This document shows, in pieces, positions 3,142 through 37,980 of a stretch of 39,434 nt of DNA (the first letter of the stretch is position 1; each line of letters begins with the position of its first letter). The stretch comes from Actinomycetes bacterium (lineage in GTDB: Bacteria > Actinomycetota > Acidimicrobiia > Acidimicrobiales > Ilumatobacteraceae): the NCBI GenBank assembly GCA_025359865.1, contig JANYDH010000135.1:1-39434 (forward strand). The letters are read 5' to 3'. A model generated the notes under the pieces. It made no database searches. It saw only the letters and a list, made by a program, of their open reading frames with translations, and had not been told where the DNA came from. The position numbers and the translations under genes were made by a program.

Positions 3142-3167
3142 GTACCCGCACGTGCGGGGACTCAAAC
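3142..3167 (-). promoter_or_regulatory. Sigma-B/F-type promoter for the 27-aa gene
   Basis: On the minus strand GTTT (3167-3164), a spacer of exactly 16 nt, then GGGTAC (3147-3142). This matches the known actinobacterial and Bacillus general-stress sigma consensus (GTTT, 15-17 nt, GGGTAT). Expected start of transcription is near 3135. Confidence 0.65.
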
Positions 3168-7947: not shown

Positions 7948-7973
7948 GTACCCCGATGTGCCCAACGGCAAAC
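7948..7973 (-). promoter_or_regulatory. Sigma-B/F-type promoter for the DUF1206 gene train
   Basis: Minus strand: GTTT (7973-7970), 16-nt spacer, GGGTAC (7953-7948). The spacer length is identical to that of the other four sites in this window. Predicted transcription start is near 7941, leaving a leader of about 20 nt before ATG 7920. Confidence 0.65.
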
Positions 7974-9948: not shown

Positions 9949-9974
9949 GTTTGGAATACCCCCTCACGGGGTAT
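9949..9974 (+). promoter_or_regulatory. Sigma-B/F-type promoter for the kinase gene
   Basis: GTTT (9949-9952), 16-nt spacer, GGGTAT (9969-9974), a full match to the general-stress consensus. Expected transcription start is about 9981, only a few bases before GTG 9983 and ATG 9989, so the message would be leaderless or nearly so. An inverted repeat (ATACCCC/GGGGTAT, 9956-9974) overlaps the -10 element. Confidence 0.65.
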
Positions 9975-12113: not shown

Positions 12114-12139
12114 GTTTGATACCGGCAACGGATGGGTAA
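12114..12139 (+). promoter_or_regulatory. Sigma-B/F-type promoter for the ferritin-like gene pair
   Basis: GTTT (12114-12117), 16-nt spacer, GGGTAA (12134-12139). Predicted start near 12146, giving a leader of about 100 nt before ATG 12249. The -35 element lies about 70 nt upstream of the divergent XRE gene start at 12044. Confidence 0.65.
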
Positions 12140-13972: not shown

Positions 13973-15379
13973 GTGAAAACGACATCGGGCTATACAAGTA
14001 GTGACACCCGAGCGGCCGTCATTCGGGATCGTCCGCATCCGCTGCAGGCAACGTTCGCCCAGGGAGGATTCGATGATCTTCCCGTTGCGGTGCTGTGCTT
14101 CGACGGTGGCGGACTGATCGACGTCAACGCCGAATGGGTCGCAGCGACCGGATACGACGTGTTCGCGTCCGCAGGTGACAGCTGGCTGACCGCGATCCAT
14201 CCAGACGATCGCGACGATGCGTCGTCATGCGTTCGAACGGCTGAGTCTGCTGCAGACACAGAGATCAATCTGCGGCTACTCGGTGCCGGCGGCTCCGCGC
14301 ATTGGTTCCGCGGACATGTCCGTTTCGTCGGCGGAGACGGCGACGTGATGCGGTTGTTGACGTTGACCGCAGTCGGTGTGCATCGCAGCAACGAGGCCCG
14401 ACTGTTGCACATGTCCACGCATGACGGCTTGACCGGTCTCGCCAATCGTTCCAAGTTCGTTGGCCAGATCAAACGTGAAATGGCCGCCAGTACTGGCCTG
14501 GCGGGCATGTTGTTCATCGACCTCGACCATTTCAAGGATGTCAATGATCACCTCGGACACCGCTACGGCGACGCAGTCCTGCAGGCAGCATGTAAACGCG
14601 TCGAAAAAACGATCCGAGACGCCGAGCTCGCAGGACGCCTCGGGGGCGACGAAATCGGCGTGTTCTGCCCACAGATCGAGACTCGCATCGACATGTTCGC
14701 GCTCGCCGAACGCATCGGCGAGTCATTGGCCACACCATTTCAGATCGGGACCGAGATCGTGATCATCGACGCGAGCATCGGCATCGCGTTCACTGACGAT
14801 GACAATGTGACCACGGTCGAATCGCTGATCGAGGCCGCTGATCGAGCGATGTACTTGGCGAAGGCCGCCGGCGGCGGACGATGGGCCACCCTCGACGAAC
14901 AGCGACCGGCACCCACCCACATCGATCTTGATGGCGACCCGTTCCTGGTGCCAATCCGGGCTGGCGTCGACGTCGCCTCAGCGAGCGACACCATCGTTGA
15001 CCACCGTCCAGCGCGTTTGCATGCCGACCTTGAGGCCGGAATTGTGATTGCACAGGCCACAGGGATGATTGCCCAACGTACTGGTTGCGAGACTTCGCAG
15101 GCCGCGTTGCTCCTTCGGGCGTTTGCGACGACCAGAAATGTCACGGTTGTGAACGCAGCAAGAATGGTCGTCAATCGCGAAACCGAGATCGACACGGACG
15201 CGACTACTCGCCGGTCGCAGCGTCTCGAGCACCCCTCCACAGGGCCGACTCAGATCGAATCTCGTCAGCCGGAGAGTCCGGAGCGGCTCGCGGTCAATTG
15301 CACAAAATCTACGGGGAGCATTCAGCGGCCGACTACGGGTGTGCCGCATTCATCTGTGGTGCCGACGCGACCATGGTGA
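13973..15379 (+). CDS. PAS-GGDEF-ANTAR signalling protein, 468 aa
   Basis: Residues 30-135 form a PAS-like sensor (LPVAVLCFDGGGLIDVNAEW, then WLTAIHPDDR). Residues 145-310 form a GGDEF domain: HDGLTGLANRSKF, MLFIDLDHFKDVNDHLGH, and LGGDEIGVF near residue 224. The signature is GGDEI, with Ile in the fifth place, so activity is possible but unsure. Near residues 345-400 an ANTAR-type RNA-binding segment appears (AGIVIAQATGMIAQRTGC, ALLLRAFATTRNV). The last ~60 residues are polar and disordered. Known: diguanylate cyclases make c-di-GMP and ANTAR domains bind paired hairpins to prevent termination. The fusion would tie a sensor and cyclase fold to antitermination. Confidence 0.75.
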   Translation: MKTTSGYTSSDTRAAVIRDRPHPLQATFAQGGFDDLPVAVLCFDGGGLIDVNAEWVAATGYDVFASAGDSWLTAIHPDDRDDASSCVRTAESAADTEINLRLLGAGGSAHWFRGHVRFVGGDGDVMRLLTLTAVGVHRSNEARLLHMSTHDGLTGLANRSKFVGQIKREMAASTGLAGMLFIDLDHFKDVNDHLGHRYGDAVLQAACKRVEKTIRDAELAGRLGGDEIGVFCPQIETRIDMFALAERIGESLATPFQIGTEIVIIDASIGIAFTDDDNVTTVESLIEAADRAMYLAKAAGGGRWATLDEQRPAPTHIDLDGDPFLVPIRAGVDVASASDTIVDHRPARLHADLEAGIVIAQATGMIAQRTGCETSQAALLLRAFATTRNVTVVNAARMVVNRETEIDTDATTRRSQRLEHPSTGPTQIESRQPESPERLAVNCTKSTGSIQRPTTGVPHSSVVPTRPW

Positions 15380-15493: not shown

Positions 15494-16258
15494 ATGTCCG
15501 ATGACGCCCTCGCCAAAGCCGATATCCGCCAAACCCTGACCGCGACGACGTTCGTTGAAATCGTAGACACCCTTGTCGGTGACTTCGACGTCATCGACGT
15601 TCTCACCGTACTGACCTCACGGTGCACCGAACTTCTCGGCGCGGCCGCTGCAGGAGTCCTTCTCGCCGACAGCGACGCGCATCTCCGTGTGGTCGGCGCA
15701 TCAAGCGGAGAGATCAATCTGCTCGAACTGTTCCAGATCCAAAACGATCAAGGACCGTGCCTGGACTGCTACCACTCCGGCCACGTCGTACTCCACTCCA
15801 ACCTCGACGAACCGTCAGCATGGCCGTTGTTCGCCGACGAATGCACACAAGCCGGGTTTGCGTCTGTGTGCGCAGTCCCATTGCGTTTGAAAGCAACCAC
15901 CCTCGGCTGCCTGAACATGTTCATCTCCGAACCCGGTGGCTTGTCCGCCTCCGACGTCGCGCTCGCCCAAGCCCTCGCCGATGTCGCCAGCATCACCATC
16001 ATCCAAGACCAACTCACACGCGACTCTGCGATCCGTGAAGGGCACCTGCAGCATGCGTTGACCAGCCGAATCGCGATCGAGCAAGCCAAAGGAATGATCG
16101 CCGAGGGCCACCACACCGACATGGACGAGGCCTTCTCCCGGTTACGTGCCCAGGCCCGAAACGCCAACCGGGGACTCACCGAACTCGCCGAATCCGTTGT
16201 CGCCGGCACGACCACCGTTGACCGCTTCCAACCCGCCGCCAGTCGACGACAGGCGTAG
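15494..16258 (+). CDS. GAF-ANTAR regulator, 254 aa
   Basis: A GAF domain occupies residues 20-165 (TTFVEIVDTLVGDFDVIDVL, LLEL-FQIQNDQGPCLDCY, CAVPLRLKATTLGCLNMFI), followed by an ANTAR domain (residues 185-240: LTSRIAIEQAKGMIAEGHHT, DEAFSRLRAQARNANRGL, LAESVV). The QGPCLDCY motif has two Cys that could sense redox or bind a cofactor. ANTAR proteins bind tandem RNA hairpins. The gene is similar along its whole GAF-ANTAR length to the protein encoded at 16955, so the two arose by duplication. Confidence 0.8.
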   Translation: MSDDALAKADIRQTLTATTFVEIVDTLVGDFDVIDVLTVLTSRCTELLGAAAAGVLLADSDAHLRVVGASSGEINLLELFQIQNDQGPCLDCYHSGHVVLHSNLDEPSAWPLFADECTQAGFASVCAVPLRLKATTLGCLNMFISEPGGLSASDVALAQALADVASITIIQDQLTRDSAIREGHLQHALTSRIAIEQAKGMIAEGHHTDMDEAFSRLRAQARNANRGLTELAESVVAGTTTVDRFQPAASRRQA

Positions 16259-16340: not shown

Positions 16341-17075
16341 ATGGGCGCCGCAGAGCAGACCCCGAACGACGAGTTGCTCGGACGGTCTGTGCGCGCCCTG
16401 CTGGAATCGCGCCAGCAGTACGGTCCGTCGGACATCTGTGGCGTGGTCGACACGGCCCGGGCTCTGCTGGGGGCCGAACGAGCCCATCTGCACGTCGCCG
16501 ACTACGCACTCAACTCTTTGTGCGTGCTCACCTCGGCCGGCCCTCTTGGTGAGTCATACCCGCTCGAGGGAACAATGGCTGGACGTGCCTTCACCACCGG
16601 CGAGGTCGTCGCCACCGACACCACCGTCTGGATCCCGCTGGTGGATGGCCGCGAACGCCTCGGCGTGCTCACCCTCTACCAACATGACGAAGGCGAGTTG
16701 ACACAAGAACAACACGACGACAGCCTCGCTCTCAGCGAGGTTGTCACCGAAACACTGCTGAGCATGCAAGACGCCGCCCCTGTCGGCACGCTCAGTGCGG
16801 GGTTCGACGACGCAGTTGCCTACCGGGCCGAGACATACCAGGCGTCAGGCATGATCGCCATCCAACTGCAGATCCCAGCATCCGAAGCGCTGCTTCGGAT
16901 CCGCGCACACGCCTCGACAACGACCGCAGCCAACCCGACGAGATGGGCTGACGAATGTCCGACACCTCACAACAACGCTCACCCGCACAGCACTCCCGCA
17001 CAGCGAACACCTTCGTCGAGATCCTCGACACCCTCGTCAACGACTTCGATGTCATCGACGTACTCACCCAGTTGA
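16341..17075 (+). CDS. GAF-ANTAR protein with a damaged C-terminus
   Basis: ATG 16341 opens a GAF-like domain (residues 5-145: DICGVVDTARALLGAERAHL, YPLEGTMAGRAFTTGEV, WIPLVDGRERLGVLTLYQ). An ANTAR-like segment begins YQASGMIAIQLQIPASEALL, RIRAHAS. The open frame then runs 120 nt into the next gene as Thr/Pro/Ser-rich residues that look non-coding. One frame over, the reading is DNDRSQPDEMG and ends at TGA 16949-16951, just before the ATG at 16955. I infer a frameshift or small deletion within the ANTAR helices, with the true end at 16951. Confidence 0.6.
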   Translation: MGAAEQTPNDELLGRSVRALLESRQQYGPSDICGVVDTARALLGAERAHLHVADYALNSLCVLTSAGPLGESYPLEGTMAGRAFTTGEVVATDTTVWIPLVDGRERLGVLTLYQHDEGELTQEQHDDSLALSEVVTETLLSMQDAAPVGTLSAGFDDAVAYRAETYQASGMIAIQLQIPASEALLRIRAHASTTTAANPTRWADECPTPHNNAHPHSTPAQRTPSSRSSTPSSTTSMSSTYSPS

Positions 17076-17971
17076 CCTCGATATGTGTTGATCTTCTGAA
17101 CATCAAGGAAGCGGGCATCCTCCTCGCCGACGCAACCGGCCACCTCCGCATTGGCGGCGCGTCCAGCGAACAAATCCGACTGCTCGAACTGTTCCAACTT
17201 CAAAACGAACAAGGTCCTTGTTTGGACTGCTACACCACCGGCGAAACCGTCGCCGCTCCCAACTTGACCGCTCCTACACCCTGGCCGAAATTCGCTACCG
17301 CCAGCGTCAACGACGGGTATCGCTGGGTCTATGCACTCCCCCTCCACCACAACCGTGTCACCCTCGGCTGCCTCAACTTGTTCAAAGCCGACGCCGAACC
17401 CCTCGCGCCCAGCGATATCGCGCTCGCCCAAGGGTTCGCCGACGTAGCCAGAATCGCCATCATGCAAAGCCACGCCAACCAGCAAACCGACGACCGTAAC
17501 GGCCGCCTGAATCACGCTCTTGGAAGCCGCATCACCGTGGAGCAAGCCAAGGGTATGGTCGTCGAGCATTTTGCTGTCGACGTACACGACGCGTTCGAGA
17601 TGTTGCGTTCGTACGGATTCGCCAGCAACCGCAGCCTTCTCGAAGTGGCAACGTCCGTGAGAGGACGGCATCGCCTCGTGCGGATCGGGGGAGAACTCGA
17701 CCTCGCCACCCGAGACGCCTGCTTCAACGCATGCGTCGTGGCTGGCGGCGAATCAGTCGACGTCGACATCTCCGCGATCACGTTCATGGACGGCAGCGGC
17801 TATGGCGCACTTATCGCAGCACGGCGCGCGCTCGAACAGCAGGGCCGCTCACTGTCTGTCAGTCACGCAGCCAACCAACCGGCATATCTCCGTCGGCTAC
17901 TCGCCGAATACGAGTACGCCGCCCCGACTCAACCGTCGAGCCACACAAACGACGGCACAAGCGTCATTTGA
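16955..17971 (+). CDS. GAF-ANTAR-STAS fusion regulator, 338 aa
   Basis: Residues 20-165 are a GAF domain close to that of the gene at 15494 (TFVEILDTLVNDFDVIDVL, FQLQNEQGPCLDCY). Residues 185-238 are an ANTAR domain (LGSRITVEQAKGMVVEHFAV, AFEMLRSYGFASNRSLLEVA). Residues 240-325 form a STAS domain as in anti-sigma-factor antagonists: HRLVRIGGELDLATRDACF, VDVDISAITFMDGSGYGAL, ARRALEQQGRSLSV. Ser281 in MDGSGYG aligns with the serine phosphorylated in SpoIIAA/RsbV-type proteins. The architecture couples an RNA-binding antiterminator to a sigma-factor switch. It ends 3 nt before the convergent CorA gene. Confidence 0.8.
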   Translation: MSDTSQQRSPAQHSRTANTFVEILDTLVNDFDVIDVLTQLTSICVDLLNIKEAGILLADATGHLRIGGASSEQIRLLELFQLQNEQGPCLDCYTTGETVAAPNLTAPTPWPKFATASVNDGYRWVYALPLHHNRVTLGCLNLFKADAEPLAPSDIALAQGFADVARIAIMQSHANQQTDDRNGRLNHALGSRITVEQAKGMVVEHFAVDVHDAFEMLRSYGFASNRSLLEVATSVRGRHRLVRIGGELDLATRDACFNACVVAGGESVDVDISAITFMDGSGYGALIAARRALEQQGRSLSVSHAANQPAYLRRLLAEYEYAAPTQPSSHTNDGTSVI

Positions 17972-19534: not shown

Positions 19535-19560
19535 CTACCCGCGCTGGTCCCGTCCGAAAC
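19535..19560 (-). promoter_or_regulatory. Sigma-B/F-type promoter for the chaB-like gene
   Basis: Minus strand: GTTT (19560-19557), 16-nt spacer, GGGTAG (19540-19535). Predicted start near 19528, leader about 36 nt including the strong GAGGAGG site. Confidence 0.6.
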
Positions 19561-20020
19561 GTCACACTTTTCAAGTTGAAGCTGGCCCCAGATCCCAGAT
19601 CCGAGCATCGTTGCTGGGAACTCAAGGTCAGTCGGTTGCAGGCCGAGATCGCACAGAGCAGCAGGCGGGGTCGATCTTCCCAGTCAACTACCGACGACAA
19701 GGCAGCGCCTGGTGATCGTTGCTGTGCAGGCGGTCGCGAGAAGCAAACCCTTGGCTAGCGACCCCACGGTGAACAAGTCGGCAACGGCGTCATGTTCACT
19801 TGACATGGTTGTCGAGCTGAGTTGACGGATCTCGGAAATGTGCTTGCCCCCTTACTCACCCCACCCCAACTCGCCACTCCGGCTGGTGGCGCCTCGCAGA
19901 AGTTCGAAACACTGATCGGCGTGACACATCACATGGCCCGGCGCCCGTGCATCAAGGCTGACCTTTGGCGTTGGGCTGTTGTCAACAGGTTGTCGCAAAA
20001 TGCGGGTGGGGTTGGCGGTA
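19561..20020. other. Stretch without recognisable genes
   Basis: Short frames exist on both strands but none has a family motif, a plausible ribosome site or coding-like residue use. It marks the boundary between the stress-gene region and the mobile-element region. Confidence 0.5.
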
Positions 20021-20090
20021 CCCGATCCCGATCCCGATCCCGATCCCGATCCCGATCCCGATCCCGATCCCGATCCCGATCCCGATCCCG
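20021..20090 (+). repeat. Hexanucleotide microsatellite (CCCGAT), 11.7 units
   Basis: Seventy bases of uninterrupted CCCGAT units (11 full units plus CCCG). No unit has a substitution, which implies recent expansion. In translation it gives Pro-Ile, Asp-Pro or Arg-Ser alternations, but no supported gene covers it. It lies at the left edge of the first mobile module. Confidence 0.95.
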
Positions 20091-27513: not shown

Positions 27514-28431
27514 CTATCGATCGATGGCAAGCGCGTCGCTACGGGATCGATGCAGCGTGCGACCGAGCAACGCCTCAACGCTGAGGCTCTGGCTTTCGCT
27601 TGCGTGACTCAGGTCGATGCTCGGGTCGTCACTGAAGTCATCAGCGACGACGTAAACGCGCGTGTCGAAGCGGGCGCGACTCAGGGCGGTGTACCCGGCC
27701 TCTTGGTACAGATCATCGGTGGCGAGGACGAGGGCTTCATCGGCGGTGAGCCCTTGCGTCTTGTGCATCGTCATGGCGTAGCCGTGGTCGAGGTGGCCAT
27801 CGTCGAGGTAGTTGGTGGGCACGGCCCGGTCGGTTCCGTCGGTCAGGCGCACGGTCACCGATCGAGCCTCAGGATCGATCGATGCGACCACGCCTCGCAT
27901 GCCATTCAGCAAATCGTCCGCACGCTGATTCCTCAGGCACACCACGCGATCGCCGGTTCGGAACTCGCGGTCGCCGACGATGAGAGCCTCAGAGCCAAGT
28001 CGTCGGCCATTGAGCATCTCTTGTCGTGCAAGACGGTTGAGGTCGGCGACATCATCGCGGCGGAGGGCGAGGATCGCGACGTCGCGCTGGAAGCGAAGCT
28101 GGGTCGACCAGTGGGAGATCAGTTGCTGCTTGGCACTGTCGGCTGTGTCGCCGATGTGGATGCGACCGTGAGCTTGGTAGGCGGTGAGGAAGCGACCCAC
28201 CTCGCCGGCGCGCAGGTCGGCGAGCGTGGTGCGTTCCCAGGCATGTTTCTGTCGGCGGTTCTCGGTGAGGCCGATCGTCGGCATGCGCTTCTCGAGTCCG
28301 CGCAGCACGCCGCCGGCTTCGATCGACTGGAGCTGGTGGGGATCGCCGACCAGGATGAGTCGTGAGCCGCCGGCATCGGCCGCGTCGAACAGCCGGGCGA
28401 GGGCTCGGGTGCCGACCATCGCGGTTTCGTC
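27514..28431 (-). pseudogene. MobF/TrwC relaxase-helicase, C-terminal half (copy 2, split by RIT element)
   Basis: Starts within Walker B: DETAMVGTRALARLF, directly after the inserted element; the other half ends VLVID at 31753. It holds the RecD/TraI-type helicase motifs: LILVGDPHQLQSIEAGG (motif III), GLTENRRQ, AILALRRDDVADLN, GDRVVCLRNQ, HGYAMTMHKTQGLTADEALV (motif V) and YTALSRAR (motif VI). The end LHRSRSDALAIDR with TGA is natural. No frameshift or stop in 305 codons, so the pair would make an 828-aa protein if the insert were gone. The helicase motor drives strand transfer in relatives. Confidence 0.85.
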
Positions 28432-28433
28432 CA

Positions 28434-28455
28434 CTTATGCGGAGTTCCGCATAAG
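28434..28455. repeat. Short perfect palindrome at the edge of the RIT insertion
   Basis: CTTATGCGGA, GT, TCCGCATAAG: 10-bp arms with a 2-nt gap. It lies between the relaxase sequence and the left terminal repeat of the RIT element, is absent on the right side, and resembles the element's terminal motif TTATGCCGG. It may be a leftover of another insertion or part of the true element end. Confidence 0.7.
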
Positions 28456-28460
28456 TTGAC

Positions 28461-28545
28461 TTATGCCGGGTTCCGGATTATGCCGGGTTGTGGGGTGTTG
28501 TGCCTGGTAGGGGTGGGTGTGGCAGTGTCTTGGTTCGGCATAATT
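28461..28545 (+). repeat. Left 85-bp terminal inverted repeat of the RIT element
   Basis: Pairs with 31668-31752 in inverse orientation with two mismatches by my reading. It contains TTATGCCGGG at 28461 and 28478 and CGGCATAA at about 28536-28543. Its inner edge overlaps the stop codon of the third recombinase gene (TAA at 28546-28544). Confidence 0.9.
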
Positions 28546-29543
28546 AGAGGGCTTCTAGGAAGGCGAGGAGTTTGTCTGGTGGGCGGTATCGGCCTGGTGT
28601 TGTGTTGGGCGGGGTTGTTCTGGTGATGGCTTGTTGTTTGATGGTCATGTCGGCGTGGAGATACATTTGGGTTGCTTCGATATCTTCGTGGCCGAGCCAC
28701 ATGGCGATGACGGAGATGTCGACGCCGGTGTGGAGTAGTCGCATTGCACAGGTATGTCTGAGCGTGTGTGGGCTCACGGTTTTCGTTTTCAGGGTCGGGC
28801 AGCGTTGCCGGGCAGTAGCAGCGTGTTTCGTGACGCGGTCCTCGATTGCGTCACGGCTGAGGTGGCCACCGGTTCGGGTCGGGAACAACGCGCTGTCGGG
28901 TTGGTCGTGGTGTTCTTTCATCCAGACGCGGAGCACGGCAACGGTTTGGGTTGTGAGTGGGGTGCAGCGTTGTTTGCGGCCTTTGCCGTTGCAGGTCACG
29001 TTCGGTCCGACGCCGAGAACGATGTCGGCACGGTTCAGGCTGGCGAGTTCGGATACTCGCAACCCGGTTTGAATCGCGACGATGAGAAGGGCGTGGTCTC
29101 TGCGACCGATCCAGGTGGTCCTGTCTGGAGCGGCGATGATCGCGTCGACTACGGCGGTCAACAGCGGGTTCGAGGAACGACACGAGGCGTTTGTCGAACC
29201 GTTTTTGGGCGATCGCGAGGACACGCTGAATGGTGGCGGCGTGTTCGGGGTGTTTCATCGCGGCGTAGCGGAACAGCGAACGGATCGCTGCGAGGCGTGC
29301 GTTACGGGTCCGCGGGTTGTTGTGGCGTTCAGTCTCGATGTGGGTAAGAAACCCGTTGATCAGTGTGATGTCGAGATCGGCGACGTCGAGATCGGTGGGA
29401 TGTTTCCCGGTGGTCGTCTGAGCGAAACCGAGTAGGAGACGGAACGTGTCGCGGTACGCGGCGATGGTGTTGGGACTGGCGTGGCGTTGCGTCATGAGTC
29501 GGTCCGTGAAGAACGACTGCAAGGTCGGTGCGAACGAGGTCAT
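28544..29543 (-). pseudogene. Third tyrosine recombinase of the RIT element, frameshifted
   Basis: ATG 29543 overlaps the second gene's stop. Residues 1-130 are a SAM-like core-binding domain (LQSFFTDRLMTQRHASPNTI, AAYRDTFRLLLGFAQTT, RNARLAAIRSLFRYAAMKHP). At about 29180, after RLVSFLE, a one-base shift is needed to reach PLLTAVVDAIIAAPDRTTW and the catalytic domain: TGLRVSELASLNRADI (Arg), GKGRKQRCTPL (Lys), HTLRHTCAMRLLHTG (H-x-x-R), WLGHEDIEATQMYLHAD (H and Tyr). Apart from the frame all catalytic residues are present. About 332 aa if repaired. Confidence 0.8.
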
Positions 29544-30392
29544 GATGGCACCGTCAACGCGTGTTCGACCCTGCGGGCCGCCAAGGCCATCAACTCCGGC
29601 GACGCGGTCAGATATCAGTATGTGGAGACCGGTCCGGCATGACCGAGGTAGGTCGACAGCCACGCTAACCGCGGTCCAATGTCGAGATCCTGGGAGTACC
29701 AATCGGTCAGAGTGTTCACCGCGAAGCTGTGGCGTAGCGAATGGATCGTGGGGCGACACGAACACGGCCGGGCTCACAGATTGTGGGCAGTGCCGATCGC
29801 GTACGTCGAGATAGGCGGCGAGCGCGGCGAGCGCGGCGAGCGCGGCGAGCGTGGATAGTTGCACCGCGACGTCCCGAGATTTCCCGAACTTCGATTTGCG
29901 GACCACGACCAGGGCGGCCTGCCAGTTGATGTCGTTTCGGTCTAAACGGATCGCTTCGCCTCGTCGCATGCCGGTAACGGCAAGTAACCCGAACACGGTC
30001 TCATACGTCGCGGCGCGTAGGGGTGTGGGCAGCGTCGATGCTGCTGCCATCAACGCGCTGATTTCAACGGCCGAAAACAGGTAAGGAACCACCCGATGCT
30101 TGTGGTTCAGGATCAGACCGACCGGTGGAATCTCACAAGCGGGATCGATCCCGTGGAGATACTTGCTGAACCCGCGGACCGCTGTCATCGGGCGGGCGTG
30201 AACGGTGCTCCCATGCTCAATCGCTGGGATTGTGGACCACGCCAACGCCAACGCCACCGTCACGACTTGATGACCGCTCGCGTCCATCCAGTCAACAAAG
30301 CAGGGTAGTAGACGTGCCGCGTCGTCAAGGTTGTGGCCCAACGCTCTGCGGATCGTGAGATAGTCGATAACAGTTCCATCGAAGCCGCTCAT
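29540..30392 (-). pseudogene. Second tyrosine recombinase of the RIT element, deleted and with a stop
   Basis: ATG 30392 overlaps the first gene's stop. Core-binding part: DYLTIRRALGHNLDDAARLL, TAVRGFSKYLHGIDP. Catalytic part: GLLAVTGMRRGEAIRLDRND (Arg) and VVRKSKFGKSRDVAVQ (Lys), then a run STLAALAALAALAAYLD from 9-bp tandem repeats. After PAVFVS (about 29755) the frame changes and roughly 30 residues seem missing; the correct frame then reads TIHSLRHSFAVNTLTDWYSQ, LSTYLGHAGPVSTY, followed by TGA where the family has Trp, and YLTASPELMALAARR. So one deletion with frameshift and one nonsense change. Confidence 0.75.
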
Positions 30393-31607
30393 GACCCGCT
30401 CCTCGGCCAGGGGCGAGCCAACGATCCCAACGACACCCGGTCAACCTTGGCGTAAACAGCGGTCGAGGCCAGATCACGATGCCGTAACAACTGCGCAACC
30501 TCGGGCAAACCGGCACCCGCAGCCAACAACTCAGCAGCGAGCGCGTGACGTAACCGGTGCGCACCCATCGTTGCCAGCCCGGCTCGACGACACGCGAAAT
30601 GGACCACCGTGGTCACCGTTGTCGAATCGATCCCGATCAACGGTGCCCGCCGCCGCAAAAACACCTCACGACAACTCACCACGGGCCGGCCCCCGTTCAA
30701 ATATCCGACAAACGCGTCACCGACATCGGACGGCATCGGACGGCATCGGGAGTCGATCGACCCGATTGCCCTTGCCTCGCACCACGATCTCGCCGGCCCG
30801 CCAATCCAGATCCTCCAACCGCAACCCGGCAACTTCAGCTGACCGTAAACCCAACCGAGCCAACAACGTCACGACCGCGAAATCACGTCGGCCAGTCACC
30901 GTGCCACGATCACAACTGTTCAACAACAACACGACCTGTGAAGCATCGATCGTTGGCGGCAACACCGTGCCATGCCACACAGCGACACCAGGCACCGTGT
31001 CCGCCAACGAAAACGGAATACGGCCATCGAGATACAAGAATCGCAACAGCGACCTGAGTTCGCCGACATGAACCTTTGCTGACGCAGCCGACCGGCGCGT
31101 GCACAAATCCAACACGAACCGCGTTACATCGGCGCCGCACAAGCCCTCGACCCCTGACCCCGAGCCGGAGCCTCGGCGGGCACTCAAAAACCGTTCAGCC
31201 AAAAGGCCAAAACGAGCAACGGTCCGCGATGCCAACACCCGCTCCTCAACAAGACATCGGTGATACGCCCCAAGCACCTCGCCCAGCGCAGTTGAACACA
31301 TGACAACAGCCGGCACAACCAGAGCTTCCGCCACGAAGAACCTGACCAACGGAGCCAACCCTGCCACCGTCACATAACGGCGATGACCCGCAACCCGGCG
31401 CGCCTCACCAAAGCTGGCGACCTGTGCTCCGGACCACTCACCCGCAGCCAAACGCTCACCAGTCAACCAGCGATTCAGGTGCCACCACACCGCCAACAAC
31501 GCTTCCATCGAGTTCGCCGAGTACCCAGCCTCACCCAACGACGACCGGAACCTCGCCCCCAACCCCGACAACGGCCCCGACCTCGAACCAACCGGATATG
31601 CACTCAT
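30389..31607 (-). pseudogene. First tyrosine recombinase of the RIT element, broken by a 10-bp duplication
   Basis: ATG 31607 (or 31610) follows AAGGGAGG. The frame runs through VARFGLLAERFLSARRG, LRSLLRFLYLDGRIPFSLAD and VVTLLARLGLRSAEVAGLRL (Arg), VVRGKGNRVDRLPMPSD (Lys) and then fails. At 30724-30743 the unit CATCGGACGG is present twice in tandem; removing one copy restores VDRLPMPSDVGDAFVGYLNG and the rest, with GAHRLRHALAAELLAAGAG (H-x-x-R) and LLRHRDLASTAVYAKVD (H and Tyr). About 402 aa if restored. The cause of inactivation is therefore visible directly. Confidence 0.85.
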
Positions 31608-31667
31608 CATCTGCCTCCCTTGCCGAAGCGACCTGCCCCAAGCAAACAAAGCGTTCACCAACCACCG

Positions 31668-31752
31668 AATTATGCCGAACAAAGACACTGCCACACCCAC
31701 CACTACCAGGCACAACACCCCACAACCCGGCATAATCCGGAACCCGGCATAA
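31668..31752 (-). repeat. Right 85-bp terminal inverted repeat of the RIT element
   Basis: Inverted match of 28461-28545. Its outer end (CGGCATAA, 31745-31752) abuts the relaxase codons GTC ATC GAT with no spare sequence, unlike the left side. Confidence 0.9.
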
Positions 31753-33321
31753 ATCGATGACGAGCACCGTTCGGTCGTCGAACTGCTCGGTACCACGGTC
31801 GAGGTCGATCGGCAGCTTGGCGATCGTGCGCGACGGGGTGTGGGCCTGGTCCTCCAGCTCCTTGGCCGCCCGGGCAGCGAGCGAGGCGCCGATGACCCGG
31901 TAGTGGCTCCCCTCCCACATCTCGCGGGCGAGGTTGAGGCTGTACGTCTTCCCGCTCCCGGCCGCCGCGATGAGACAGTCGACGAGCCGCTCACCGGTGA
32001 GCAGACGGTGCACGGCGGCGCGCTGTTCACCGGACAGGCCGGGCTTAGTGGCGAGCACGAGCCTCGTGACCGAGGGAAGAAGCTGAGGGCGAGGAGTCGT
32101 GCTGCGCCGAACAGCGAGGTCGATGATCCGCTGCTCCAACGCCAGCAGCTCGCGGGTCGAGTAGCGGCGAGTGACCGTGCCGATCCGCCGGCCGGAATGC
32201 AGCTCGACGTCCTCGCTGCCATTCGTGTCGACGCCGAGGTCGACCGCTTCCGGACCTTCGAGCAGCCGTGAGGTGACCCGCTCGACCTCGTCGATCGTTG
32301 CTCCGTCGATCGCCCGCTCGGCGAGGTCGCGCAGCGCGTCGAGACGAGTGAACGTCGACGTCTTGTGCGTCAGTCCCTTCGGGCTCAGCGCGGTCGGGAT
32401 CTCGTCGTCGAGCACGCCTACCCGCCAGGGACGGTCGAGCAGTCGGTCGAGGCTCGCCGGGTCGAAGCCGATCGACTCAGCCTCGCGTTGCCACCGCTCA
32501 CGCAGGGTCTGATCCGACTCCGGGTCCGCCTTGCGGTCGCGGGTGGCGAGCGCCGCGACCTGCGCGGCCCGACCGCTGGAGTAGCCCTTGATCGCGAGCC
32601 GGTCCTCGATCTGGCTCCGCCGCTTGGAGAAGTGCCACAACACCGCGGCGGGAGCGCCGTCGATCTCGGAGATGCCGTTGCGGGCCGGCCGCCACCGGAC
32701 GCCGAAGCGGTTGGTCAGCTCGTGGCGCATCTCGGCCTCGAACAGGAAGCCCGCAGTTCGCAGCGCGGGGTACACGCGGGTGCCGTCGAGCGTGCGCCAC
32801 CGGCCGTCCGGCCCGCGGGTCGTGTTGGCGACGAGCACGTGCCAGTGGAGCTGCGGGTCGCCGGCCCGGCTGGTGCGGTGCCGGAACGCGGCAGCGACGT
32901 AGCCGTCACCGTCGACGTGCTCGACACCGTTGTGACCGCGCCGGCTGAAGCAGGCGTTCTCCTCCAACCAGGCGATCGACCGGGCGACGGCGATCTCGCA
33001 CGCGTCGACGATCTGTTCCGACAGCTCCGGCCGCAGCGCGGCGAGCACCGAGACCGACTTCGGCACGGAGAAGGTGAGATCGAAGCCGGGCACGGTTCGG
33101 TTGCCCGCGCCAAGCATCGAGCCGTCGGGAGCAGTGCCGGCGAGGATCGCCCGCAGCGCCTCGGGCGTCACCTCACCGTCGAGGCCGAGCAGCTCGGCTC
33201 CCCGGCCGGCCCAGTACCCCGGCGCCTCGCCGCGACCGACGTAGTAATCCTCCGCACCCTTCGCGACTGCGTCGAGGTAGTACCCCTCACTGCCCCGACC
33301 GAGCTTTGCCAGCGACAGCAT
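31753..33321 (-). pseudogene. MobF/TrwC relaxase-helicase, N-terminal half (copy 2, split by RIT element)
   Basis: ATG 33321 (MLSLAKLGRG; GTG codons just upstream are alternatives). The relaxase domain has two tyrosine pairs near residues 13-27 (EGYYLDAVAKGAEDYYVGR), LTFSVPKSVSVLAALRP, and the three-His metal site FRHRTSRAGDPQLHWHVLVA (near residue 160). The helicase domain begins around residue 430 with GLSGEQRAAVHRLLTGERLV and Walker A AAAGSGKTYSLN (near 453). It ends VLVID at the element edge. 523 codons without a stop. Read on into the element it would add about 70 foreign residues and stop at 31531. Confidence 0.85.
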
Positions 33322-33674
33322 CACGACCACCCCAGCGGGCCGAACGCCGAGCGGCCAAACGGGCACGAGCCGGCGGTGCCGGACGAGACAGAAAGTGGAC
33401 GCACTTGCATCACGGCTGCGCTGCCGATGCGGCGGCCACAGTCGCGTTCGCAACTGGCTGCCGATGTGCCGGCCGCCTGCCGGCAGGGCTGGTGGGTTCC
33501 GGTGGCCAAGGGTGCCTCGGCCTGAAGTGCCGTCGTTGGCACGTAGCCGTGCCAGAGAACGCCTGTTGGGCATCGAGACGGGTTGAGCGAGGAGCAGCGC
33601 ATTAAGACCTCCGGCGCGTCGAGGCCGACCTGGTGTCGGCTTGAGGGCCGAAGGTGCGCCAGCGATGTTGCTGA

Positions 33675-33702
33675 CCACGCGACTGCGACCACAGTCGCGT
33701 GG
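33675..33702. other. Candidate oriT hairpin (copy 2)
   Basis: Same 10-bp stem as in copy 1 (CCACGCGACT with AGTCGCGTGG), loop changed in three places. It lies in the 530-bp interval between the divergent relaxase and excisionase-like genes. This interval (33322-33858) shows no gene but keeps other shared G/C-rich repeats such as GCGATCGCG. Confidence 0.5.
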
Positions 33703-33858
33703 GCGATCGCGTTTCTGTGGCGCGATCGAGTGGTCAGTCGCGTGAAGGCAACGAGACTACCGACGCGATCGCGCGAGAAATCAGCCGAAGGAGTGCTGCG
33801 CCCGGGCAAATCCGTGCTCTGTATCCCTGTGTACTCGCACGATCAGAAGGAGCACCCG

Positions 33859-34080
33859 ATGCACGCCACTGGAACTGACTTCGCCGGCCTCGACGACGAC
33901 CTCCGACTCGTCACCCTGCCCGACGCCGCCCGGTTCCTCTCCGTCAGCCGTGGTTCGCTTTACGACCTGCTGACCACAGGCCAGCTCGCCTCGGTCCACA
34001 TCGGCCGGTCACGCCGCATCCCGCTCCGGGAGCTTCACCGGTACATCCGCGAGCGCCTGGAACGCGAACGCTGCAACTGA
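33859..34080 (+). CDS. Excisionase-like HTH DNA-binding protein (copy 2), 73 aa
   Basis: ATG 33859 has AAGGAG 7 nt upstream. Residues 12-65 are an HTH_17/excisionase domain (LRLVTLPDAARFLSVSRGSL, YDLLTTGQLASVHIGRSRRI, RELHRYIRERLER). Length is typical for excisionases and for conjugation-linked regulators. Intact, in contrast to the altered tail of copy 1. It is transcribed away from the relaxase and may regulate it or assist excision. Confidence 0.8.
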   Translation: MHATGTDFAGLDDDLRLVTLPDAARFLSVSRGSLYDLLTTGQLASVHIGRSRRIPLRELHRYIRERLERERCN

Positions 34081-34111
34081 TCGGTGTCCAGTACGGCGCC
34101 CTTGCAGGCCG

Positions 34112-34279
34112 TCACTCGCGTAGTGCCGCGACGAACCCATCCCACTCCTCGTCGGTGAGGTCCTCGATCGCAAACTCGCCGGTGCCCTCGTAGGGCTGCA
34201 CGGTTGCGAGCATCGATTCGAGGTCGGCATCGAGCCAGAATCCCGTGGCGGAGAAATCGGCGTCGTCGAAGTCCTTCAC
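34112..34279 (-). CDS. Small acidic protein (copy 2), about 55 aa
   Basis: From GTG 34279: VKDFDDADFSATGFWLDADL, ESMLATVQPYEG, FAIEDLTDEEWDGFVAALRE, TGA 34114-34112. The C-terminal 45 residues match the copy 1 protein at 21844. Most base differences between the copies are silent or conservative, which supports translation. No ribosome site is evident, and the frame is open a little further upstream without ATG. Function unknown; position next to the HTH/nucleotidyltransferase gene is kept in both copies. Confidence 0.5.
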   Translation of the reverse strand: MKDFDDADFSATGFWLDADLESMLATVQPYEGTGEFAIEDLTDEEWDGFVAALRE

Positions 34280-34378
34280 GAATCCGATCGTAGGCGGCGT
34301 GCATGACCAGTGCCCGTCGACGTTCGAGCCGAACGGCGCAGTGCCGCTTCCTCATTCGCGTTCGGACTGTCGAGCTGA

Positions 34379-35389
34379 CTACGGGGCTGACGAGCGTCGG
34401 ACCTTGGATCGTTGCGTCACCTCTGCACGCTCGTCCTCGTTCAGCATGGTCGTGAACGGCGACATCTTGAGGAGTTCCACATGACCCTCGTCGGTCGACA
34501 TCAGCAGTCGCACAACGTCAGACCTTGGGCCATAAAGAAGGCGATGCCACGACTCGATGTAGGGCGCGCTGCGCTTGCTCACTGATCGCTTGAGGGTGAC
34601 CAGTCGGGCTCGTCCGAGATCGAGCACCCGGTCGGGATCGTGGAGGAACTTCTCCAGGACGATTCGATGGATCTCGATCGTCTTCGAGACAGACCGGTCG
34701 TCTTGTCGGGCCGGACGAATCGACGTCGGAACCGGCGAGCCTGTCGGTTGTCGTCGCTTCGACCGACCGGCGGCCGGTGAGCGATCCTTCCCTCCTGTGT
34801 CCATGGCCCTCATCGACACCGGCACCATCGGTCGTCCAACGACGGTGTCGTGGAACGTGCCGCTTCCGTCCGTGAGCCAGCTGGCTGATCGGATCGTCAC
34901 TTGGACTGTTCTGCCCAGCCTGCCCTCAGACTCGCTTGCCGCCGCGTACACCTCGTCGCGGTCAGGTCCACCGAACACGAGGAGGTCGATGTCACCGACC
35001 GGCCGCTCGCCGTTCTCGCCTGAGAATCGCGCCGCCCAAGAGCCGTAGATGTACGCGGCCTCGATCCCGTCGACGCTGCTAAGCGCCTGGCCGAGCACCC
35101 ACGGCACGCCGAAGGCCTTGACGAGCACGTCGGACAGTCCTTCGAAGTACGGGCTCGAAACGTCGGCTCGAATGAGCCAGGTTCGCCCGACGCGTCGGCT
35201 CGTCACGAGGCCTGCAGCCTTCGCCCGTTCGACTTCGCGATGCACCGACGGATACGGGATGTTGGTGCGCTCGGCGAGCTCAGTGAGGCGGTACTCCGCA
35301 GCCGGGTCGCCGAGGACAAGCGCAAGAAGCTCGGCCTGCTGCTGCGAACGGAAGATCGGCAGGAGCGACGGTGTCGGTGCTTTGTCCAC
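34379..35389 (-). CDS. Winged-helix/nucleotidyltransferase fused to the XRE partner's C-terminal domain
   Basis: GTG 35389 (upstream residues RDIVHVV also match copy 1 but lack ATG). Residues 5-75 form a winged helix (RSQQQAELLALVLGDPAAEY, PYPSVHREVERAKAAGLVTS). The nucleotidyltransferase core has AAYIYGSWAARFSGENGERP and VGDIDLLVFGGPDRDEVY. After MVPVSMRAMD a basic linker leads to IHRIVLEKFLHDPDRVLDLG, SAPYIESWHRLLYGPRSDVV, ELLKMSPFTTMLN, equivalent to the C-terminal domain of the separate XRE protein in copy 1 (22030-22458). The HTH itself and the intergenic part are missing, so a deletion seems to have fused two genes. 336 aa, no stop. Confidence 0.7.
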   Translation of the reverse strand: MDKAPTPSLLPIFRSQQQAELLALVLGDPAAEYRLTELAERTNIPYPSVHREVERAKAAGLVTSRRVGRTWLIRADVSSPYFEGLSDVLVKAFGVPWVLGQALSSVDGIEAAYIYGSWAARFSGENGERPVGDIDLLVFGGPDRDEVYAAASESEGRLGRTVQVTIRSASWLTDGSGTFHDTVVGRPMVPVSMRAMDTGGKDRSPAAGRSKRRQPTGSPVPTSIRPARQDDRSVSKTIEIHRIVLEKFLHDPDRVLDLGRARLVTLKRSVSKRSAPYIESWHRLLYGPRSDVVRLLMSTDEGHVELLKMSPFTTMLNEDERAEVTQRSKVRRSSAP

Positions 35390-35404
35390 AACATGTACGA
35401 TATC

Positions 35405-35419
35405 TCTCAGGTTGTGAGA
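35405..35419. promoter_or_regulatory. Conserved operator TCTCA-N5-TGAGA (copy 2)
   Basis: Same arms as at 23321-23335, different spacer, 16 nt upstream of GTG 35389, as in copy 1. The remaining interval to the methyltransferase (35420-35686) shows no supported gene. Confidence 0.5.
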
Positions 35420-35686
35420 CTGATCCAGCGAGCATGGACTTCGGTCGGAGCTTTACGCCGCTGGCCTTCGTCGTGGCGAGCTCCACCCGATGGGCCCTTC
35501 GTTAGGCCATGATGGTGGACGTGTCCCCGCTCATCCGCCACTCCCCGAGCGCCACATGCGCAGGAGCTCGGGACCGCAGCCGCTGGGTCTCTGTGTCACA
35601 CCCCCTGCGTACTGTGCTCGGACATGAGGGGATCGCGGTACGACACACGCCGAACCGGGTTGCAGTTACGCCTACTGGGGGCCGAC

Positions 35687-36820
35687 ATGGTTAGCGCTAC
35701 GCGACAGGTGGCCCAGAAGCGCTCCGGCATGGTGAAGGGTGGTGCGATCTCACTCTTCTCGGGGGCCGGAGGCCTTGACCTCGGGATCGAAGCGGCTGGT
35801 TTCCAGACGCTCGCCGCAGTCGAGTGGGACGAGGACGCAGCCGACACGATGGAGAAGAACGCCCCAGCATTCTTCCCAGCGTTGAAGGAGGTCCTGCGGG
35901 CAGATCTCTACCCGCTCGCCACGGGTGACGGAGTCGGAATGACCACGAGGGATCTCCTCCGTGCTGCCGGGCTCGGCGCGCGCGAGAAGCCGGACCTCCT
36001 CGTCGGTGGTCCGCCGTGTGTTGCGTTCTCCAAGTCAGGCTTCTGGCTCGACTGGAAGCGTGACGCTGTCGACCCAGCAGCGAGCCTCCTCCAGGCGTAC
36101 ACGAAGGTGCTCGCCGAAGCTCGGCCGCGGTTCTTCATCCTCGAGAACGTGTACGCGCTGACGTTCGACAACAAGGCGAGCAGGCCGGCGTTCACGCGGC
36201 TTCTCGCCGAGATCGAAGCTGCCGGCTACAAGTTCAAGTGGCAGGTGCTGAACGCTGGCGACTACGGCGTGCCGCAGCTGCGCCCACGCCTGTTCATCGT
36301 CGGCGCCCGTCGAGGCGACTCGGTCCCCGAGCTTCCCGAACCGACGCACTTCGGAGACTGGGAACGCCGGACGAATCAGGGCACCGGCCCGCTCCCGCAT
36401 GTCACCACCGGCCAAGCGCTCAACGGCCTTGTCACCACCCCCGAGTCGGAGGAAGTGGTCCGAGGCCAATGGGGCCACCTGCTGCCTGGAATTCCGCCCG
36501 GCGAGAACTACCTCTACTACACCGCGAAACGCGGGCATCCCGATCCGTTGTTCGAATGGCGCTCGCGGTACTGGTCGTTCTTGCTGAAGCTCGATCCAAA
36601 CCGAGCGGCGCCGACGATCCAGGCGCAGCCGGGACCCAACGTCGGTCCCTTCCACTGGGAGAACCGTCGGCTACGGGTTCCCGAGCTCCGCCGGCTCTTC
36701 ACGTTTCCCGATGAGTTCGAGTTTGTCGGCAAGCGGATCTCCGTGCAAGCGCAGGTCGGCAATTCCGTTCCTCCGCTCCTCGCGCAGCGGGTCGCCGAGC
36801 AGGTCGCTGCTCAGCTCTGA
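35687..36820 (+). CDS. C5-cytosine DNA methyltransferase, 377 aa
   Basis: Start ATG 35687 has GGGGG 5 nt upstream; an in-frame ATG at 35624 would add 21 residues. Motifs in order: I ISLFSGAGGLDLGIEAAGF (residues ~21-39), IV LLVGGPPCVAFSKSGFW with catalytic Cys near 110, VI FFILENVYAL, VIII QLRPRLFIVGARRG, IX and target region, X QAQVGNSVPPLLAQRVAEQV (near 358). Complete. It methylates cytosine at C5 in a site set by the 240-330 region; the site cannot be predicted. It is convergent with, and overlaps by 10 nt, the nuclease gene, the usual layout of a type II restriction-modification pair. Confidence 0.9.
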   Translation: MVSATRQVAQKRSGMVKGGAISLFSGAGGLDLGIEAAGFQTLAAVEWDEDAADTMEKNAPAFFPALKEVLRADLYPLATGDGVGMTTRDLLRAAGLGAREKPDLLVGGPPCVAFSKSGFWLDWKRDAVDPAASLLQAYTKVLAEARPRFFILENVYALTFDNKASRPAFTRLLAEIEAAGYKFKWQVLNAGDYGVPQLRPRLFIVGARRGDSVPELPEPTHFGDWERRTNQGTGPLPHVTTGQALNGLVTTPESEEVVRGQWGHLLPGIPPGENYLYYTAKRGHPDPLFEWRSRYWSFLLKLDPNRAAPTIQAQPGPNVGPFHWENRRLRVPELRRLFTFPDEFEFVGKRISVQAQVGNSVPPLLAQRVAEQVAAQL

Positions 36821-37980
36821 GGGCCGCCGCGCAGAAGTTCTTCGAACGACAGCGCCCAGCTCTCGTCGATGCGTTGGACGGGCTTGATCCGCGCGGGATC
36901 GCTGGGCCAGGGATCGAGATCCTTCGTCCAACGGAACCGGTACTCCCAGATGCCTGTCGCGGAGAACAGGCAGGCAGCGAGGACGTCGAACTGATCGAAC
37001 GTGTACTGACGCCCCGCGCCTGAGTCTCTGGTCTTCTGCGCCTCAACCTTGAATGCACCGTCCTTGTACCGGTGGGCACTGGCTGTCTTGCACTCGATCA
37101 GCACCTCGCGACCGTCGGGTGTGGTGACCAGGAAGTCGGGCTGACCATCGGCATCGATTGGGATAGCCGACGCGACCGATGGATCGCCCCTGAGAACGCG
37201 CTCGAGGTGCCGCTCGGCGACGCCGCCGCGCACGGCAACTCCGAGACGGAAGTTGGACTCGATGATGTCGAGAATCTCCTTGGACCCGAGGCCGAAGAAG
37301 CCTTCAAGGCGATGTGGCCCGGTCGCCGACGTGAGGAACTCGCGTGCCAGCGAGCCGCGAAGCGCCGGGTTCAACCCGAGAGCGCTCGCACGCGCTTCGA
37401 ACCTCACGTAGTCGAGCAGCCGATGCGGACGGAACCCGACCATGGTCTCCAGCTCGACGATCCGCGAACGCCGGCTTCCGCCCGTCTTGTCGCGCTCCCA
37501 AACCGCCCACCCGTGTTCGTCGGCCTCGCTGACGTTGTGGTCCCGGTAGTACACCGAGATACCCATCGGAAGGTCCTCGTACACGAGCGGGTCCAGGCCG
37601 ACGATGAACTGGAGCTCCGGGTCGACAGTGAGCACGAGAGTGACGTCGACGCCGGCGACGTCACGCGCGATGGTGTTGCTCTCGTTGCGCGTTCGCGTCG
37701 GGTCGCTGAGGCGGATCTGCGCTCGGTGCTCGTCCACCGGCCGGCCCCCGGTCAGCCGCTTGGTCGCACGAAATGGGTAGACGAGAAGCCCGTAGCGTGC
37801 GCCGGTGCCATCTTCGGCTCCGATGTAGATCGGCGCGACACGTTGATCGCGAAACGAGCTGTAAACGACGCGGCCGCCGCTGGCCTCGATCCCTTTCTCC
37901 AACAATTCCACCACCGACGCGCGGTCAGCGTCGATGTTGTAGAGCTTCGGGATGTAGAGCCGGCCAGCGAGTTCAGGCAC
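36811..37980 (-). CDS. Probable type II restriction endonuclease (PD-(D/E)XK), 389 aa
   Basis: GTG 37980 start. The N-terminal part (YIPKLYNIDADRASVVELLE, IYIGAEDGTGARYGLLVYPF, VAGVDVTLVLTVDP) resembles restriction enzymes of this size. Near residues 280-297 lies the nuclease motif: DADGQPDFLVTTPDGREVLI, ECKTAS, that is PD, 14 residues, then E-C-K. The C-terminus has FDQFDVLAACLFSATGIWEY, common in such enzymes. It converges on the cytosine methyltransferase gene, so a cognate pair is likely. The recognition site is unknown. Confidence 0.75.
   Translation of the reverse strand: MPELAGRLYIPKLYNIDADRASVVELLEKGIEASGGRVVYSSFRDQRVAPIYIGAEDGTGARYGLLVYPFRATKRLTGGRPVDEHRAQIRLSDPTRTRNESNTIARDVAGVDVTLVLTVDPELQFIVGLDPLVYEDLPMGISVYYRDHNVSEADEHGWAVWERDKTGGSRRSRIVELETMVGFRPHRLLDYVRFEARASALGLNPALRGSLAREFLTSATGPHRLEGFFGLGSKEILDIIESNFRLGVAVRGGVAERHLERVLRGDPSVASAIPIDADGQPDFLVTTPDGREVLIECKTASAHRYKDGAFKVEAQKTRDSGAGRQYTFDQFDVLAACLFSATGIWEYRFRWTKDLDPWPSDPARIKPVQRIDESWALSFEELLRGGPQS

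Follow-up and report, generated by a model that had tools for sequence, protein, structure and literature searches.

The last gene of a regulatory cluster in the window (the whole 39,434-nt stretch of DNA that was analysed) raises the question of what a protein does that carries a GAF sensor, an ANTAR domain and a STAS domain in one chain. The preliminary description had proposed that this protein, P0001, could release a stress sigma factor and prevent transcription termination from a single sensor. The cluster and the parts of P0001 are as follows.

13973-15379, + strand: PAS-GGDEF-ANTAR protein, head of the cluster (Pfam)
15494-16258, + strand: copy B1, an ordinary GAF-ANTAR protein and a paralogue of P0001 (Pfam; 76% identical to copy B of G248)
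16341-16922, + strand: copy A of the GAF-ANTAR pair, degenerate (ANTAR 12.7 bits, below the cut-off; end branch 1.6; composition)
16955-17971, + strand: P0001, GAF-ANTAR-STAS protein, 338 aa plus stop (open reading frame, Pfam, coding signature)
17048-17461, + strand: GAF sensor domain, aa 32-169 (Pfam PF13185/PF01590; full-length model, block pLDDT 94-98)
17504-17659, + strand: ANTAR domain, aa 184-235 (Pfam PF03861; profile matches to PAL, EutV and NasR)
17636-17662, + strand: aa 228-236, at the junction (one model closes the ANTAR domain with it as a helix; the other makes aa 230-236 the opening strand of STAS)
17678-17902, + strand: STAS domain, Pfam match aa 242-316 (Pfam PF13466/PF01740; model and PDB matches)
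17792-17794, + strand: codon of Gly280 at the phosphoacceptor position, in D279-G280-S281-G282 (alignment with SpoIIAA chains 1th8_B and 1tid_B)

P0001 is a genuine three-domain GAF-ANTAR-STAS protein. All three domains scored above their Pfam cut-offs (GAF, PF13185, 39.5 bits vs. 28.6; ANTAR, PF03861, 41 bits vs. 27.3; STAS, PF13466, 41.9 bits vs. 29.2), bearing out the original description of an ANTAR domain followed by a STAS domain in one chain with a sensor. A coding signature resembling that of the adjacent gene B1 was present on either side of the junction, with G+C at codon positions 1/2/3 of 0.62/0.43/0.73 in the GAF-ANTAR part and 0.69/0.51/0.71 in the STAS part. The STAS domain adopted a SpoIIAA/RsbV-like fold in the predicted structure, as that description had supposed (block pLDDT mostly 94-97 in the model with STAS rows; top PDB matches SpoIIAA, RsbV, and TM1442), and was 35-48% identical to the seven other rows of its alignment, A1. 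Its score against the NCBIfam anti-sigma factor antagonist model (TIGR00377), 29.5 bits, fell under the cut-off of 53.45.

The residue on which a sigma-factor switch would depend is a different matter. The preliminary description read the motif MDGSGYG as keeping the phosphorylatable Ser; however, M-D-G-S-G of P0001 aligned without gaps with M-D-S-S-G of SpoIIAA (pairwise matches were weak, E 0.035-0.68), placing Gly280, which follows Asp279, in the column of SpoIIAA Ser58 and pairing Ser281 with SpoIIAA Ser59. Counting along chain 1th8_B put Ser58 immediately after Asp57, chain 1tid_B differed by an Ala in exactly the Ser58 column, and the family alignment of STAS agreed with the placement of Gly280. 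Ser58 is given as the phosphorylated residue of B. subtilis SpoIIAA in the available part of PMC3517971, and Ser56 as the phosphorylation site of RsbV in that of PMC7340262. On the alignment with SpoIIAA and its mutant chain, the reading of a phosphorylatable Ser in P0001 was rejected.

The A1 profile, run over 221 genomes of the family, recruited a tight clade of 12 STAS loci scoring ≥95 bits, spread over 9 genomes; the next match scored 78 bits. The acceptor residue in these 12 members was Cys in eight, Ala in two, Gly in one, and Phe in one, with Ser or Thr in none; the absence of Ser from all 12 stood out against other STAS domains (P 0.0002), and the Ser is therefore not conserved in this clade, an outcome that the preliminary description had named as refuting its reading. 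Ser-bearing distant cousins of the clade exist, among them G249:C220, which has D-S-R-G. More broadly, Ser occupied the acceptor position in 4/14 ANTAR-linked STAS vs. 35/62 other STAS (Fisher P 0.08), the latter drawn from 60 hand-picked stretches away from the 27 GAF-ANTAR loci described below, with a few doubtful motif alignments and with one member (L205; G084:C213, Ser) lying near a weaker GAF-ANTAR match outside the 27. From sequence comparison, this appears to be a tendency only: a minority of ANTAR-linked STAS keep Ser, and a non-Ser acceptor was common elsewhere (27/62). An earlier comparison set (43/52 Ser) was replaced because it was made of best-scoring matches and was thereby skewed towards canonical STAS. 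Ten of the 62 formed a recurring group with D-D-x-[GA], with an acidic residue at the Ser place (e.g., L056:4944-5270), and the stand-alone STAS of the window’s own genome likewise has an acidic acceptor place.

A search of the genome for sigma-switch partners gave a similar picture. In the assembly, which is 96.6% complete, no RsbW-type kinase was found: all 16 matches to PF13581 (HATPase_c_2) lay in frames of 344-851 aa, the best at 34 bits, and the three that were scanned proved to be histidine or hybrid kinases. Relatives, by comparison, gave PF13581 matches of up to 87 bits, with frames of ≤250 aa in 10 of 11; in G001, which belongs to the same genus and carries a STAS gene beside a GAF-ANTAR pair, PF13581 matched in kinase-length frames only. 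No protein in the assembly passed the SigB/F/G family model (best 143.5 bits vs. a cut-off of 234.35), and that best-scoring protein passes the RpoD model. Given the incompleteness of the assembly a kinase or sigma gene could have been missed; nonetheless, RsbW and SigB/F/G are probably absent from the genome. The remaining STAS matches were a sulfate transporter and a stand-alone protein, the latter with D-D-T-G, and the SpoIIE model had two matches, C190 (94 bits, with one TGA in frame) and C154 (a PP2C).

With neither acceptor Ser nor RsbW-type kinase nor SigB/F/G factor over the cut-off, a sigma-factor switch by P0001 is unlikely, and the release of a stress sigma factor proposed at the outset is not supported here. 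In its full form, that account gives the STAS domain the task of freeing a SigB/F-type factor bound by an RsbW-type kinase, and the ANTAR domain that of preventing termination. The STAS fold near SpoIIAA and RsbV speaks for it, as does the setting of the Ser-bearing cousin in G249, where a SigB/F/G sigma gene (243.4 bits vs. 234.35), the STAS gene G249:C220, an RsbW-like match (57 bits, 139-aa frame), and a SpoIIE gene lie within about 4 kb. A Ser-bearing STAS also adjoins a GAF-ANTAR pair in Miltoncostaea oceani, with a sigma-70 gene nearby. That G249 module is the canonical case in this family, however, and the setting of P0001 is unlike it, so that partner switching of the anti-anti-sigma kind by P0001 seems very improbable.

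The same account draws on promoter-like motifs in the window. Five GTTT-N16-GGGTA motifs were found by pattern search, each with a 16-nt spacer:

3143-3167, - strand: GTTT-N16-GGGTA motif
7949-7973, - strand: GTTT-N16-GGGTA motif
9949-9973, + strand: GTTT-N16-GGGTA motif
12114-12138, + strand: GTTT-N16-GGGTA motif
19536-19560, - strand: GTTT-N16-GGGTA motif

These compare with 0.25 expected from shuffles for GTTT-N13-17-GGGTA, and the clustering of 5 of the genome’s 41 motifs in 39 kb had a P of about 2e-5 (about 0.002 allowing for 126 windows). The motifs described earlier as sigma-B/F-type promoters are thus present in the window, and clustered there; their reading as such promoters fared less well, as the genome-wide total of 41 equalled what a reversed-pattern control produced (40) and no SigB/F/G factor was found to read them. 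One of the motifs precedes a ferritin-like gene (12249) by about 110 nt. Between 13700 and 18200, no sigma-70-like promoter was detected, and one terminator-like site was found vs. 3.0 in shuffles.

Gene neighbourhoods in relatives bear on the other half of the proposal, the functional link between ANTAR and STAS that a single chain implies. A separate STAS gene lay within 2 kb at 13 of 27 GAF-ANTAR loci (G001, G004, G016, G018, G030, G041, G061, G063, G064, G065, G073, G088, and G090), each of them passing the Pfam cut-off for PF01740, compared with an expectation of about 0.24 loci (142 STAS matches in 24 genomes of about 90 Mb, with rounded sizes), corresponding to a P of about 1e-18 if the loci are independent and the relatedness of genomes is ignored. 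The 27 loci in 24 genomes comprised 24 of the 29 GAF-ANTAR loci listed in the relative search, the window’s own apart, and three further matches there; weaker GAF-ANTAR matches were left out, and some of the loci were cut by contig ends or held single copies. No STAS lay within 2 kb at the other 14 loci, some of them cut by contig ends, or at five further loci with flanks of at most 1.5 kb (L036-L040), and among five loci of named genomes one was found within 2 kb only in Bailinhaonella thermotolerans (L006; none at L007-L010). GAF-ANTAR proteins were often paired as divergent copies A and B. The orientation of the STAS gene varied, being downstream on the same strand in G001 (GAF-ANTAR, GAF-ANTAR, STAS) and divergent, convergent, or upstream elsewhere. 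The order seen in G001 recurred on one strand of a plasmid of Miltoncostaea oceani (class Thermoleophilia; NZ_CP064357.1), with the sigma-70 gene further on, and no STAS was found within 4 kb in four other annotated plasmid stretches, for which the gene table describes itself as incomplete. A functional ANTAR-STAS link is therefore supported by gene neighbourhood in relatives. Separately, the stretches L123 (G002) and L124 (G001) have five gene families in common around the STAS gene; the GAF-ANTAR pair is in G001, and what was recognised in G002 was limited to the STAS and part of a second STAS.

The fusion itself was far rarer. Searches looked for single matches spanning both domains, in samples that overlap: none was found among the matches listed in 99 other relatives, in 395 other genomes of the phylum, or in 396 others of the order (E ≤ 1e-9), and none of the 56 plasmid records with a match covered 80% of the query. 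Some weak matches in the phylum search extended partway into the adjoining domain and were not taken as fusions, and a match in G341 was rejected (25% identity, a stop in frame, query positions 21-123 of 142). The fusion is thus a single-genome observation in these samples.

The phylogeny of the cluster suggests how it arose. P0001 is the last gene, followed by a CorA gene on the opposite strand, and three of the genome’s five ANTAR matches at E ≤ 0.001 lie in this cluster. The GAF-ANTAR part of P0001 fell within the copy-B clade (7 rows, support 95/99), in which B1 is a close relative of G248 copy B; its branch length was 0.67, compared with 0.19 for B1. We favour, with about as much confidence as doubt, the reading that P0001 is a diverged copy-B paralogue that absorbed a STAS neighbour, and that this STAS works without Ser phosphorylation. 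Since the fusion sits on a fast-evolving second copy, there is room for a competing account in which it is a by-product of decay in a duplicate, the fused STAS having no selected role (an assembly chimera was considered as part of the same account). The occurrence of the fusion in one assembly only, among the genomes searched, speaks for decay. The state of copy A fits as well: its end branch measures 1.6 (0.13 in the G248 counterpart), its ANTAR domain is missing the end, and the frame continues to 17075, into the P0001 gene, without a coding signature, the composition falling out of frame at its end. P0001, however, is an uninterrupted frame of 338 codons; its GAF-ANTAR part and its STAS part each carry a coding signature, all three domains score over their cut-offs, and its STAS domain retains the identity to other A1 rows given above. 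Decay is a serious contender, though on balance an unlikely one.

Whether the ANTAR domain of such a paralogue could still bind RNA was judged from the contacts of EutV, as given in the accessible part of PMC8934654. In an ungapped profile alignment with an inferred numbering offset, P0001 kept Arg192 (EutV Arg142), Lys199 (Lys149), and Arg218 (Arg168), with Phe214 for Tyr164, and differed at the places of Lys143, Lys147, Glu160, Met172, Asn173, Arg175, and Arg177. Compared with its own family, P0001 has Gly221 (Ala in 32/34), Phe222 (Arg in 27/34), and Arg236 (V/I/L/A in 34/34). RNA binding by P0001 is therefore plausible from its sequence, perhaps in altered form. A simple pattern search for dual hairpins with A1/G4 hexaloops gave three on the + strand of the window and none on the - strand, vs. 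0.9 expected per strand, none of them near the cluster; upstream of genes, one such pair was found in 37 regions vs. 0.46 in shuffles. The window had no Rfam match at gathering scores and no tRNA by ARAGORN.

Genes other than GAF-ANTAR also adjoin members of the tight STAS clade. Its STAS domains are fused to GAF-ANTAR genes or lie ≤2 kb from them in 5 of 9 genomes (G000, G001, G004, G182, and G248), and GGDEF genes adjoin them in two (PAS-PAS-GGDEF in G250 and GAF-GGDEF in G018). In G250 (L114:6633-8323), the STAS reading frame, with Cys at the acceptor position, overlaps as called the end of the PAS-PAS-GGDEF gene, which suggests translational coupling of the STAS to a diguanylate cyclase. 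The cluster of the window itself begins with a PAS-GGDEF-ANTAR gene, and STAS proteins can bind diguanylate cyclases, as described for HsbA and HsbD in the available portion of PMC5085249. The STAS of P0001 could accordingly act on a different partner, for example a c-di-GMP enzyme, as a constitutive, unphosphorylatable antagonist or scaffold, with the ANTAR domain acting mainly as a dimeriser. The Pfam score of the ANTAR domain, above the cut-off, and the survival of several RNA-contact residues in it argue against this role, as does the preponderance of GAF-ANTAR over GGDEF neighbours in the clade, and we consider it improbable.

The junction between ANTAR and STAS lacks a linker. In an alignment with stand-alone STAS proteins, the first STAS strand overlaps the last ANTAR helix of P0001. 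AlphaFold2 run with STAS rows (A4, the ANTAR-STAS part) placed residues 230-236 in a strand (block pLDDT 86-95) of a confidently predicted STAS fold, with an unreliable ANTAR part, whereas the run with GAF-ANTAR rows (A5, full length) predicted 228-236 as a helix (block pLDDT 86-94) with an unreliable STAS part. Since each alignment holds one family over the junction and favours that family, the models show that segment 228-236 can satisfy both helix and strand patterns and do not imply switching. Two whole-chain alignments were discarded, A3 for placing STAS-only rows on the GAF domain and A2 for identities that were equally low.

Under the favoured reading of an absorbed STAS neighbour, the ancestor of P0001 would have been a copy-B paralogue that fused in frame with the type of STAS that related clusters encode separately. 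The GAF domain would sense a signal, a dimer of GAF and coiled helices would position the ANTAR domain for its target RNA, in antitermination or in control of translation, and the STAS domain, without the canonical acceptor Ser, would tune RNA binding independently of phosphorylation, by docking or allosterically; RNA binding, dimerisation, and the action of STAS on ANTAR are all inferred parts of this proposal. As the Ser needed for a sigma switch is missing, the STAS of P0001 is more likely to adjust the RNA regulator to which it is fused than to operate a classic sigma switch. In a bolder and rather doubtful extension, a branch of STAS proteins in these actinobacteria would have exchanged sigma factors for RNA as its target, the STAS proteins beside GAF-ANTAR pairs being dedicated switches of ANTAR antiterminators, here without Ser phosphorylation, and the fusion joining the pair. 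Since segment 228-236 is able to finish off the ANTAR bundle as well as the STAS sheet, competition between the domains might make it a helix/strand switch that gates RNA binding.

Compared with known systems, P0001 shares GAF and ANTAR domains, up to 54-55% identity, and a gene-pair context with the one-component GAF-ANTAR regulators of Actinobacteria (copy B), and differs from them in its C-terminal STAS, joined directly, and in the unusual residues 221, 222, and 236. The best PDB match of its ANTAR domain was PAL (PAS-ANTAR-LOV, 6hmj), which likewise has a mid-chain ANTAR and a folded C-terminal domain according to the available part of PMC12797116; the C-terminal domain of PAL, however, is a light sensor. 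SpoIIAA and RsbV share the STAS fold with P0001, but P0001 lacks their acceptor Ser, is fused to GAF-ANTAR, and comes from an assembly in which neither RsbW nor SigB/F/G was found. HsbA-HsbD of Pseudomonas aeruginosa resembles the present case in that a STAS has a partner outside the anti-sigma kinases and in the GGDEF genes near some clade members, whereas HsbA and HsbD are separate proteins, for which the available portion of PMC5085249 makes no mention of ANTAR.

Among open-licence PMC full texts, no paper contained both “ANTAR domain” and “STAS domain”, the few using both acronyms appear, from their titles, to list proteomes or to treat unrelated subjects, and the searches turned up no published STAS partner of GAF-ANTAR pairs. 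To our knowledge, little is known about how GAF-ANTAR proteins are controlled. A STAS neighbour that recurs, and that is once fused, is a concrete candidate partner for them, and suggests that a STAS module once serving sigma factors has been recruited to the control of RNA.

Elsewhere in the window, the region 27514-37980 resembles a mobile element, with a TrwC relaxase with a helicase part, a further RecD-like helicase part, a phage-type integrase, a C5 cytosine methylase, and an MTaX1 protein, and a short simple-sequence run at about 19965-20090, read in several frames, gives alternating residues such as RSRSRS.
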